NCBI GenBank assembly: GCA_021151485.1
Contig: JAGKXB010000007.1
Span: 1 to 64,000, forward strand
Reading direction: 5' to 3'
Length of the DNA stretch: 64,000 bases
From: Oxalobacteraceae bacterium
Lineage (GTDB): Bacteria > Pseudomonadota > Gammaproteobacteria > Burkholderiales > Burkholderiaceae_D
The position numbers and the translations under genes were made by a program. This document shows, piece by piece, positions 35,744 to 38,762 of the stretch. Position 1 is the stretch's first letter; each line of letters opens with the position of its first letter. A model generated the notes under the pieces. That model saw only the letters and a list, made by a program, of their open reading frames with translations. It was not told where the DNA came from and searched no databases.

Positions 35744-38164
35744 TTAATGTTGGCAATTTTTCCCATGTTGATGCACAGGGCGGAACCTTTTTTTCTTTGG
35801 AGGAGCAAGTTCTCCCGCTGGATTTTGGCCATTTTGCAGATTGTGGAGTTGCGCGAAAAATTCAGGGCCTGATCCACAAAACACAAAGTTTTGATCGAGT
35901 TTTTCCTCTTCCACTCCCTTTTCTTCTAGTTCTTGCCCACGCTCCTCAGCCGTGTTCTGATCTATGACGATGTTGTTTTCTACATCATCCATTGCTACTG
36001 CAGGTGCCGATAAAGATTGGGGCGAAGATGGCGGTAAATGATCAGGAAACGCATTGCGTGTTTTAACCATTTCGTTGACAGAGTTGATGAGCGAATAGCC
36101 AAGATAAGCCAAAAAGTTTGCAGGTTGGTGGTGTAGTCCTTCAAACATTCTTGATCCCATTTGGAGATACGCAATCAGTGGTGCAATTGCAATGCCAAGA
36201 TGCGTTGAGTTTTCAAACAAATTAAAACCAGCAAACAATTCTTTAAATATGTCAGCGATTTCAGCCCCGCCACCCAGATTGGCATACAACGTATCTAGTT
36301 GTAGCCAGTCAAAAATATGGTCAGGAAAATTCGTTGCATAGGTTGTGTACATTTCTTTATGGCCAGTAACCTTTTCATAGATTGCACTTCCTGCAAACAA
36401 CATAACAATTGCTGCCATTGCCAACACTACCTGTTCTCCACTAGGGGCATGGGGCAAAGAAGCTTGGAGGCGTGTTTCAAATGCAATTAATCCAAAATGC
36501 GCACGACAATAAAATGCGGCGATTTTGGCGTTATTGGAAGGTGGAGCAAGCAAGATGCCATCTCGCGCAAAGGTGTCGCAAAAGTCATGCAGTAGTTGAT
36601 GGATGCTGCTGCCAGGATTTTTCTTTTGATAAACATCAGCATAAGCAGTGAGCAATGCGTGGCTATCGTTTAAAGCTTGATTAAAATCCTGTTGCAATAG
36701 CGCATTGATTGATGGGGGACTGGTGTGAAGTTCGTCAATCAAATTTTGTATTGTGTCTTTTAACTCACTTTCCACCGGATTGTCTTGGTAAGCTGCCTGC
36801 CATTTTCTTAGGCCTGCCCACATTTCATTTTCATTGAGAAAGGACTGTGTTCTTTTTAAAATATTGCCAACTTCTTCGGCATCAGTGCGGCAAAAAGATC
36901 CATTAATCATGTTTGTATTCAAACCAGCTTCAAGGTCAATCCCAAGATCAATGTCGCGATCAATGCCGCGATCAAATTCGTTTCCTGAATCGCGTGCCAC
37001 TAACGGATTCTTTGCAGATCCGGCAATGTTGGAAAAACAGCTGTAAATCTTTTTAAACTCAATATACGTTTTATCGTAAACAGCAACCGCAATGAAGGCA
37101 GGTGCAGCTAAGATCAACGAATGAGACAGGTTTTCCAAAACACCATTTACCACTAAAAAGAATGCGGCCAACTCAGCCGATGCACCCATATTGTTACGTA
37201 ATGAATCGGCGCTTTTTTGATCTCCAATAGAGCGAAAAACCAACCCTATCGCCCCAACAATACAAAATGTATAAAAAAAAGAGGGGCATACCTTATAGCC
37301 AGATTTTGTTACACCAATGAATAAATCAATCCATGTTTTCCAAGTTAGATTAACGATATCTCTGGATTGTTTTAACAAATTGCTTCCACTTTCTTTTATC
37401 AGTTCGATTTTCTTCCAGGTGTTATGTAAATCAAATTGATTAACTAAGTAATCTTTGCCATCTGACATGGCGCGCGTTTCGCCATGAATAGTTCGACCAC
37501 GAATTGAATCGATAATGCCAAACATCAGATTGAAATCATGGCTTTTTCGCGAGATAAAATCCTTTCCTCCACTGAGCTGATCTTGTGCTTTATTCAGTGC
37601 AGAGAGCGTAAAAAGATCATGCCGATGGGTCGGATTGTTCGGATTAAAAGCATCACTAAAAACGACGTCAATCGCTTGTGAAATTTTTCTCTGCGCGATG
37701 AGAAAATTCCCATTGATTGCGATATGTCGGCAATCTTGCTCAGACACTCCCTGTCCATGTGAATGACAGCAATGTGCTTGAGAAGTGTCATCATCCAATG
37801 CTTGCCAAAAACGGGGACTTGCATTTGTTATCATCAATTCTTGCCGAAACATATGGCGAGCAAGCAAATCCCGCATCGCCAACGTAGCAAAATGCATATC
37901 ACCAGCAGCAATTCTTGGCTTGCATCCATTTTCAATCCAGTTCTTCGCCAACGCCAGATCATTTTCTCGCACGATATGACTTGGGATGAATTCCCGATCA
38001 ACATTCATCAGCTCGCCATCATGCTGAAATTCAGACGATCGCAGCGATGATTGCGCAATTGCTGGTTGCACAATCACATCCGATCTTGCATCAATGGGAT
38101 CGTCATTCAATGAATAAAATGTATAGCTTGAGGAGAATGAAGAAGCGGGAGATACGGACAACAT
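35744..38164 (-). CDS. Unrecognised 806-residue multi-pass membrane protein beside zur
   Basis: I do not recognise this protein. The N-terminus is Ser-rich (residues 1-20) without a clear signal peptide. A Cys/His cluster lies at 131-147 (HCCHSH then C145, H147). Hydrophobic segments are at about 294-311, 331-345, 348-363, 578-597 and 656-668. A DRGIDRDIDLGID repeat spans about 398-410. The region 425-550 is helical and soluble. The tail has an acidic stretch (740-755) and ends basic with His and Cys (KKKRFRPVHQHGKNCQH). Two 15-bp dyads matching one in front of the adjacent Fur-family gene lie 42-90 bp upstream, so metal-dependent control is likely. A secreted effector, a metal-linked membrane protein or a lineage-specific protein are all possible. 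Confidence 0.8.
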   Translation of the reverse strand: MLSVSPASSFSSSYTFYSLNDDPIDARSDVIVQPAIAQSSLRSSEFQHDGELMNVDREFIPSHIVRENDLALAKNWIENGCKPRIAAGDMHFATLAMRDLLARHMFRQELMITNASPRFWQALDDDTSQAHCCHSHGQGVSEQDCRHIAINGNFLIAQRKISQAIDVVFSDAFNPNNPTHRHDLFTLSALNKAQDQLSGGKDFISRKSHDFNLMFGIIDSIRGRTIHGETRAMSDGKDYLVNQFDLHNTWKKIELIKESGSNLLKQSRDIVNLTWKTWIDLFIGVTKSGYKVCPSFFYTFCIVGAIGLVFRSIGDQKSADSLRNNMGASAELAAFFLVVNGVLENLSHSLILAAPAFIAVAVYDKTYIEFKKIYSCFSNIAGSAKNPLVARDSGNEFDRGIDRDIDLGIDLEAGLNTNMINGSFCRTDAEEVGNILKRTQSFLNENEMWAGLRKWQAAYQDNPVESELKDTIQNLIDELHTSPPSINALLQQDFNQALNDSHALLTAYADVYQKKNPGSSIHQLLHDFCDTFARDGILLAPPSNNAKIAAFYCRAHFGLIAFETRLQASLPHAPSGEQVVLAMAAIVMLFAGSAIYEKVTGHKEMYTTYATNFPDHIFDWLQLDTLYANLGGGAEIADIFKELFAGFNLFENSTHLGIAIAPLIAYLQMGSRMFEGLHHQPANFLAYLGYSLINSVNEMVKTRNAFPDHLPPSSPQSLSAPAVAMDDVENNIVIDQNTAEERGQELEEKGVEEEKLDQNFVFCGSGPEFFAQLHNLQNGQNPAGELAPPKKKRFRPVHQHGKNCQH

Positions 38165-38198: not shown

Positions 38199-38227
38199 CA
38201 ACAAATGCAACTTAATTGCATTTGTTG
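38199..38227. promoter_or_regulatory. Zur/Fur-type operator 1 upstream of the 806-aa gene
   Basis: A perfect inverted repeat with 12-bp arms (38199-38210 and 38216-38227) around CTTAA. The 15-bp core at 38206-38220 is TGCAACTTAATTGCA. It shares the TGCAAC-N3-(G/A)TTGC(A/G) core with operators 2 and 3. It is 42 bp from the start codon of the 806-aa gene. Confidence 0.75.
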
Positions 38228-38238
38228 GGCAATAAAAA

Positions 38239-38253
38239 TGCAACCAAGTTGCA
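38239..38253. promoter_or_regulatory. Zur/Fur-type operator 2 upstream of the 806-aa gene
   Basis: TGCAACCAAGTTGCA, an inverted repeat TGCAAC/GTTGCA with a 3-bp centre; flanked by AA and TT that extend the dyad to 38237-38255. It is centred 33 bp (about three helical turns) from operator 1, so two dimers could bind on one face of DNA. Confidence 0.7.
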
Positions 38254-38282
38254 TTAATCGGCAAATAAACAACCATCAAAAA

Positions 38283-38732
38283 TCAGACACAATCTGCGCA
38301 CACCCCCTTCACGGTCAGTTCTGTTCCGAGTTGATGAAACCCAGCTGGCAACGCAGTCGCTCCAATATCAGCGCGGATATTTTCAAGGCAAATCACTTTT
38401 TTGCATTGACTGCATTTAAAGTGCGCGTGTTGGTGCTGCTGTGTCTCGTGATCGCTCACGCGGAATCGCCAGATGCGATCATCACTAATCACCTTGTGCG
38501 CCAATCCTTTTTCTATCAACCAATCCAGCACACGATACAAGGTCACGCGATCAATTTTTTCCTCACTCTCTGGGTCGTTTAAACCACTTTCAATCTGATA
38601 ATGCGTGACAGCACTTTGTTGTGATAACAAAAATCCAAATACACGTATACGAGACGACGTTGCGCGGTCGCCTGTCTCTCGGATTAACTGCTCTGCCTTA
38701 CTGAGGAATGGAGGTGTGGTCATGATGATCAT
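38283..38732 (-). CDS. zur: Fur-family metal regulator, probably Zur
   Basis: A 149-residue winged-helix metalloregulator. Residues 10-90 form the DNA-binding domain (VTLYRVLDWLIEKGLAH is the recognition region). The C-terminal domain has His-rich QQHQHAHFKCSQCKKVICL with C107/C110 and VKGVCADC with C145/C148, the two CxxC pairs of the structural zinc site. The His pattern and the gene's short length favour Zur over Fur, but the metal is inferred. A 15-bp dyad 16 bp upstream of the ATG suggests autoregulation. It follows mnmE by 118 bp and precedes the 806-aa gene. Confidence 0.85.
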   Translation of the reverse strand: MIIMTTPPFLSKAEQLIRETGDRATSSRIRVFGFLLSQQSAVTHYQIESGLNDPESEEKIDRVTLYRVLDWLIEKGLAHKVISDDRIWRFRVSDHETQQHQHAHFKCSQCKKVICLENIRADIGATALPAGFHQLGTELTVKGVCADCV

Positions 38733-38747
38733 TGGTCAAGCCAATAT

Positions 38748-38762
38748 TGCAACAAAGTTGCG
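38748..38762. promoter_or_regulatory. Zur/Fur-type operator 3 upstream of zur
   Basis: TGCAACAAAGTTGCG, the same TGCAAC-N3-GTTGC core as the two operators ahead of the 806-aa gene. It lies 16-30 bp before the zur start codon, where a bound repressor would block transcription or RNA polymerase escape. Confidence 0.7.

Follow-up and report, generated by a model that had tools for sequence, protein, structure and literature searches.

Three closely similar dyads mark the gene for a Fur-family regulator and the gene that follows it, which codes for an 806-aa protein of no described family. To judge from the sequences, both genes are very probably under Zur-type control, and the 806-aa protein probably serves the cell under zinc starvation. 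Zinc transport by this protein has an even chance of being its activity. The complete explanation, a Zur-repressed zinc-starvation membrane protein acting in zinc acquisition, is one that we hold to be balanced between right and wrong. The features are listed in Table 1. The window (the whole stretch of DNA that was analyzed) has a length of 64,000 nt and stems from an Oxalobacteraceae genome.

Table 1. Features of the zur locus in the window and of the paralog locus elsewhere in the same genome (positions with the prefix L050).
Feature	Position	Strand	Remarks
806-aa protein, undescribed family	35744-38164	minus	118 bp downstream of regulator gene
Zur-type box 1, TGCAACTTAATTGCA	38206-38220	.	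within perfect 12-bp-arm dyad 38199-38227
Zur-type box 2, TGCAACCAAGTTGCA	38239-38253	.	exact match to core
Fur-family regulator, putative Zur type, 149 aa	38283-38732	minus	Pfam, NCBIfam, PDB comparison
Zur-type box 3, TGCAACAAAGTTGCG	38748-38762	.	15 nt 5' of zur start codon, directly behind promoter-like -10
Paralog, 772 aa	L050:5093-7408 (G000:C70)	minus	30% identity to 806-aa protein
Fur-type box before paralog	L050:7455-7479	.	two mismatches of 19

Three Boxes at the zur Locus

Box 2 is identical to the core TGCAACNNNGTTGCA, and boxes 1 and 3 have one mismatch each. The gap upstream of the 806-aa gene holds boxes 2 and 1, which are 33 bp apart. The original prediction had placed two dyads before the 806-aa gene and one before the regulator gene, had attributed a shared core to them and had extended the first one to a perfect dyad with 12-bp arms. 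All of this is correct, and the extended dyad is seen on both strands. It had also been claimed that the window has no other such dyad. This holds when at most one mismatch to TGCAACNNNGTTGCA is allowed, which returns just these three sites; three further matches have two mismatches.

At up to two mismatches, the number of sites in the window (6 found, 6.89 expected) is not above chance, so that the case for the boxes rests on their clustering and recurrence. The three sites that differ from the core by no more than one letter cluster within 557 bp, which is above chance. When 40 versions of the window were generated with a first-order Markov model, the mean number of such sites was 0.4 and the largest was 3. 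The Poisson probability for three of them in one given 557-bp stretch is about 7e-9. When Markov versions were made of the two intergenic stretches, none of 300 had any site.

The Regulator and Its Box in Related Genomes

The regulator appears to be a Zur-type repressor, whose DNA binding would depend on zinc. It has a FUR domain (Pfam PF01475, 38.3 bits, cut-off 23.1), and its best solved relative is the zinc uptake regulation protein 4mtd. Zur is the best of the 11 NCBIfam models listed, yet the score (57.4 bits) is below the cut-off of 167. Two structural CxxC motifs are present, and their cysteines (C107, C110, C145 and C148) are invariant across six aligned regulators. The regulator has a Phe at the residue aligned with what we take to be one ligand Cys of E. 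coli Zur. Relatives of the regulator with up to 56% identity are found in the same order.

The regulator was searched in 100 genomes (its own and 99 of the family and order). A match was found in 51 of them, and 30 loci were compared. The pattern TGCAAYNNNRTTGCA, with at most one mismatch, has 27 sites in 19 of the 30 zur loci, while the reversed pattern has none in any of the 30. When the locus in the window is excluded, 24 sites in 18 of 29 related loci are left; 11 of the 30 loci have no box. One of the sites (L018) is 1.4 kb off zur and is probably there by chance. A site at most 150 nt before the zur match is found for the zur gene of the window and for 13 of the 29 relatives. A would-be fourteenth (L021) has its site directly before the zur frame, in a locus that is cut short. 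The original prediction had considered the core doubtful, as it differs from the TATAAC-type box. Its recurrence in the related loci indicates that the TGCAAC-type box is the form used by the clade of this regulator, in print or not, which settles this doubt.

The boxes also occur after zur. In two loci (L023 and L032), zur has a pair of boxes behind it on its own strand, with a spacing of 38-39 bp, and cobW comes next. The order in the window is that of these two loci, with the 806-aa gene occupying the cobW slot. In L029, a small frame separates such a pair of boxes (38 bp apart, after zur) from cobW. The two genes zur and cobW are adjacent in L033, L034, L040 and L046, and in L019, zur is followed by a box and then by the gene for a TonB-dependent receptor. 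The cobW labels are based on Pfam for L023, L025 and L029 and on a sequence motif for the others. In L018 (1984-2409) and L030 (1925-2401, minus), a DksA-like frame (by eye) is found directly before zur.

Boxes and Metal Genes in the Rest of the Genome

The genome comprises 2.18 Mb in 88 contigs and is rated 100% complete. Its gene content points to Burkholderiales, and an efflux gene beside the locus does so weakly: four of the first five rows listed for it are from Comamonas or Burkholderia, with similar scores for enterobacterial rows. When up to one mismatch to TGCAACNNNGTTGCA is allowed, the genome has 14 distinct sites, compared to 8 for the reversed control. Eleven of these are outside the locus, nine of them in open frames and two intergenic. 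The latter are found before pgk (C53) and before the frame that adjoins an rne-like gene on its left (C1:58637), the names being assigned by eye. Exact TGCAAYNNNRTTGC occurs at 16 distinct places (control: 3), three of which are the boxes of the locus. Outside the locus, 12 of the 13 places are in open frames, the exception being the one before pgk.

Two Fur-family genes are present in the genome. A single ZIP gene follows a trpF-like gene, and a TonB-receptor plug is encoded by four genes. Pfam searches of the genome found neither ZnuA nor CobW. At up to two mismatches, no box is found directly upstream of the ZIP gene or of the four TonB receptor genes; one two-mismatch site is located ca. 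1.3 kb before a receptor gene (L065). A wider regulon would be expected, but a search for it in this genome gave none: the other sites are mostly inside open frames, and the ZIP and receptor genes have no close box. Because no other recognized metal gene bears a box, the regulon appears to be limited to this locus, as far as the pattern goes. The genome scan that had been suggested for finding links to metal genes thus has a divided outcome. No other metal gene with a box was found here, and in the relatives, the boxes accompany cobW or the gene for a TonB receptor.

Some unassigned genes adjoin the metal genes of this genome. The ZIP gene is followed directly by a long frame of unrecognized kind (L060:3-1277, minus). 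Two of the genes for TonB-dependent receptors are directly preceded by genes for small proteins (L064:828-1214 and L065:864-1262), in which HSxSH-like or CxxC motifs are seen by eye.

The Family of the 806-aa Protein

The 806-aa protein has no match in NCBIfam and no Pfam match over the cut-off. The sole Pfam line is a viral phosphoprotein model, which is below the cut-off (E 0.3). A PDB sequence search with the family profile gave one hit, with an E-value of 0.11. The earlier assignment to an unknown family is therefore upheld with respect to Pfam (over the cut-off), NCBIfam and PDB.

Protein searches, which scored just ca. 8000 candidates sharing most words, returned 18 homologs, with identities of 34-94% in the alignment. 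A profile search for distant homologs returned 15 proteins, all of them among the first 18, and a search with the paralog as query returned only the paralog itself. Plasmid records gave no match to the family. Within its own order, the 806-aa protein is found in this genome alone (399 genomes searched). A scan of species genomes resulted in nine loci, all from MAGs that are labeled Rickettsiales, Alphaproteobacteria or Pelagibacterales. In the order of one such MAG, 10 of 343 genomes have a match, one of which is weak.

The gene for a TonB-dependent receptor is directly upstream of the family gene in five of the nine loci. The receptor was called over Pfam cut-offs in L051, by eye in L052 and by NCBIfam models below the cut-off in L054, L056 and L059. 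In L054, the row of family gene and receptor gene is followed by ExbB and ExbD. A ZnuA domain protein adjoins the family gene in L052. ZigA is encoded upstream of it in L055 (667.7, NCBIfam cut-off 600). L058 has a divergent Fur-family gene, which scores highest with the NCBIfam model for Zur (96 bits, while the cut-off is 167), and L059 codes for a TonB-like protein that is just below the Pfam cut-off.

Exact TGTTATGTTATAACA is found upstream of the family gene in three of the nine loci (L053, L055 and L058). In 60 Markov sets of the nine loci, there was no exact site, and the mean was 0.32 at up to one mismatch. At this level, the six other loci have no TGTTAT-type box. Two of these (L051 and L052) start at the contig end inside the gene row, and in one (L057), the gene is without its first half. 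In L054, L056 and L059, the upstream DNA is present, and there is still no such box. L053 has the box and no zinc neighbor, and L057, with its partial gene, has neither. Since exact TGTTAT-N3-ATAACA occurs in three of nine alphaproteobacterial loci, a single family is found under two different types of predicted Zur boxes (TGCAAC-type and TGTTAT-type). The postulated link between the regulator and the 806-aa protein is strengthened from two sides: among the relatives of the regulator, the same box is found next to zur, cobW and the gene for a TonB receptor, and zinc-uptake neighbors and TGTTAT-type boxes go with the family in another class. A literature search that joined Rickettsiales, zinc uptake, Zur and TonB found nothing.

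Two further observations concern these loci. Small HSxSH-like/CxxC proteins (by eye) are encoded directly before TonB-dependent receptors in L051 (3-482), L054 (1907-2287) and L059 (3333-3701). Scans of those from L054 (Pfam and NCBIfam) and L059 (NCBIfam) gave no match. The family gene is interrupted (split frames or an internal stop) in L055 (2400-4603), in L058 (5977-8017) and in L053 (near 2479-2620). The interruptions in these three MAG loci could be assembly errors or decay.

Anatomy and Proposed Function of the 806-aa Protein

Just four inner hydrophobic segments stand out in the hydropathy analysis of the 806-aa protein (near residues 301, 343, 587 and 665); the very N-terminus is also at the threshold. 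Two cores, ENLxH (344-348, in the context ENLxH-x6-P) and ENSTH (651-655, in the context ENSTHLG), are invariant in the 25 rows of the alignment. The invariant residues are E331, E344, N345, H348 and P355 in the first pair of segments and E651, N652, H655 and P662 in the second pair, and they fall in the predicted membrane segments. The two halves can be superposed as E-N-x-x-H-x6-P, a faint likeness (hhalign probability 4.7%, P 0.0085). Cys/His stretches are found near both ends of the protein. A C-terminal tail (last 45 residues) with at least 3 His and 2 Cys is present in 14 of the 25 rows, and three more rows have 3-4 Cys. Two weak structure models were obtained (mean pLDDT 53.5 and 62.1), which are best in the large soluble helical parts and poorest in and around the membrane segments. 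In a fold comparison with both models, there was no PDB match at E 0.001.

We propose the following mechanism. When zinc is sufficient, the Zur-type repressor would be bound to the TGCAAY-N3-RTTGCA boxes. The single box would shut the regulator's own promoter, and the two boxes 33 bp apart would give a tighter shut-off at the 806-aa gene. Under zinc shortage, the repressor would leave the boxes, and the 806-aa membrane protein would be made. It would help the cell to acquire or keep zinc. Two related hairpins, in which an invariant His follows four residues after an acidic residue (E344/H348 and E651/H655), would probably provide a zinc route through the inner membrane, and the Cys/His stretches near the ends would collect zinc or hand it over.

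It is quite possible that the 806-aa protein is controlled by Zur and is not a transporter. It might store, buffer or hand on zinc at the membrane, or it might aid a TonB-dependent receptor or a ZigA-type chaperone. Such a role would fit the large soluble helical domains, which are the best-predicted parts, and the Cys/His stretches near the ends. It would also fit the location of the gene directly after that of a TonB receptor in five of nine loci and after ZigA in one. However, invariant polar residues in hydrophobic segments would be unusual for a pure anchor. In addition, no CobW partner was found in the genome that contains the window, and its TonB receptors are encoded elsewhere, without a box.

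Transcription of the zur Locus

A promoter-like site (TTGTCG-17-TATAAT, minus strand, 38798-38770) is found at zur; it is a consensus match only, and 2 such sites were found in the stretch vs 1.7 expected. The promoter consensus scan found no promoter-like site proper to the 806-aa gene. On the 3' side of the zur stop codon, the extended dyad of box 1 can also be read as a weak hairpin of the terminator type. Its RNA fold has -15.7 kcal/mol (z -5.35). A T-rich run with a late start is found behind it, on the transcribed strand, and 4 of its 13 pairs are G-C. The extended dyad may serve twice, as an operator and as an RNA hairpin.

The hairpin with its T-rich run, together with the failure to find a promoter-like site for the 806-aa gene, would be expected if the dyads were real Zur operators of the regulator alone. 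Box 1 would then be the zur terminator, and the 806-aa gene would be merely downstream. We consider this improbable. The hairpin has few G-C pairs and a late T run, and the gap holds not one but two boxes, one of them an exact match. A double box after zur also precedes cobW in relatives (L023, L032 and, past the small frame, L029). Finally, in another class, the genes for relatives of the 806-aa protein come with their own Zur-type boxes or zinc neighbors. Control of both genes by the Zur-type regulator is the reading that we prefer.

A Paralog with a Fur-Type Box

The genome codes for a paralog of the 806-aa protein. It departs from the invariant residues at E344, N345 and E651 (with Asp at 344 and 651), while H348, H655 and N652 are kept. 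Both proteins share most of an N-terminal extension (38% identity over 66 residues, E 7e-16 in a two-sequence comparison), which is absent from the alphaproteobacterial members. Upstream of the paralog gene is a stretch that resembles what we take to be the Fur box consensus. The expected number of such stretches in that locus is 0.01, and the window has none. Because the paralog gene carries a Fur-type box and the 806-aa gene carries Zur-type boxes, the sequences suggest that one genome holds zinc and iron versions of the family. The paralog gene is located behind a row of genes for Porin_O_P, FMN_bind, ApbE and DUF4405 proteins. This row looks like an extracytoplasmic flavin electron route.

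It is very improbable that the regulator and its module serve another metal or signal (e.g., iron, cobalt or manganese): the regulator is below the cut-off of the Zur model and lacks one presumed ligand of E. coli Zur, and the Fur-type box of the paralog may mean that different metals are served within the family, but zinc is favored because of the CobW and TonB targets in relatives, the ZigA and ZnuA neighbors of the family elsewhere and the separate Fur-family gene in the same genome. For the 806-aa protein and its regulator, zinc thus remains the preferred metal.

Origin of the 806-aa Gene

The G+C content of the 806-aa gene is 42.1% overall and 36.9% at third positions, compared to 48.0-61.5% at third positions for five neighboring genes. 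The values for the paralog gene are 39.5% overall and 32.0% at third positions, and the nine alphaproteobacterial loci have 30.6-45.1% overall. The low G+C content, together with the distribution of the family, suggests that the 806-aa gene was acquired from a donor with lower G+C. The donor was probably a Rickettsiales-type bacterium, and the gene would then have been placed under the host's own Zur box. A tree has several long branches and does not settle where the window protein joins the alphaproteobacterial ones, so that it gives no direction of transfer.

A more far-reaching proposal can be made, which we regard as rather unlikely. The family would be a new class of metal permeases, unrelated to ZIP, ABC and NRAMP, that has split into Zur-zinc and Fur-iron versions within one genome. 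It would have moved from Rickettsiales-type bacteria to another order, where a Zur box of the TGCAAC type would have replaced one of the TGTTAT type in its control.

Comparison with Known Systems and Significance

In ZIP transporters, the membrane helices contain conserved His and acidic residues, and His-rich stretches are present. The 806-aa protein resembles them in its His/acidic pairs in predicted membrane segments and in its His stretches. Unlike ZIP proteins, it has no Pfam match (including PF02535) and fewer hydrophobic segments, and no shared fold was found with the two weak models; the genome has a separate ZIP gene. With ZnuABC/TonB zinc uptake, the family shares the gene neighborhood, as its genes adjoin those for a ZnuA domain protein (L052) and for TonB receptors in alphaproteobacterial MAGs. 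It differs from the components of these systems, being neither a substrate-binding protein nor an ABC permease nor a receptor according to the models searched.

In Cupriavidus metallidurans, as described in two papers, two Zur boxes precede the tightly repressed cobW1 operon, whose expression is restricted to zinc starvation, and one Zur box precedes most other members of the regulon (PMC10882993, PMC11340326). The Zur targets named there include ZupT and three CobW proteins (PMC10882993, PMC11340326). The double Zur box before a target gene is thus alike in its arrangement. In contrast to what is described there, no CobW was found here, no box is close to the ZIP gene, and the gene behind the double box codes for an unrelated membrane protein. 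From Sinorhizobium fredii, a third paper reports a 15-bp inverted repeat before zinc-uptake genes with zinc-dependent binding of Zur, and the box is described as a 7-1-7 palindrome (PMC7029138). When compared with this description, rather than letter by letter, three loci of the family have ATGTTAT-N3-ATAACAT, whereas the window has TGCAAC-type half sites. The box terms were not found in PMC13192273. The regulation belongs to a familiar kind and has a box specific to the clade, and no connection of the target family to anything described was found.

Zur regulons are a reliable route to proteins that matter under zinc scarcity. Besides the regulator itself, the sole target found here belongs to no described family and is encoded in a small genome in which neither ZnuA nor CobW was found. 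The 806-aa protein is a testable lead and a candidate for undescribed zinc acquisition or handling. The Fur-type box of its paralog would allow testing how metal choice evolves within one family.
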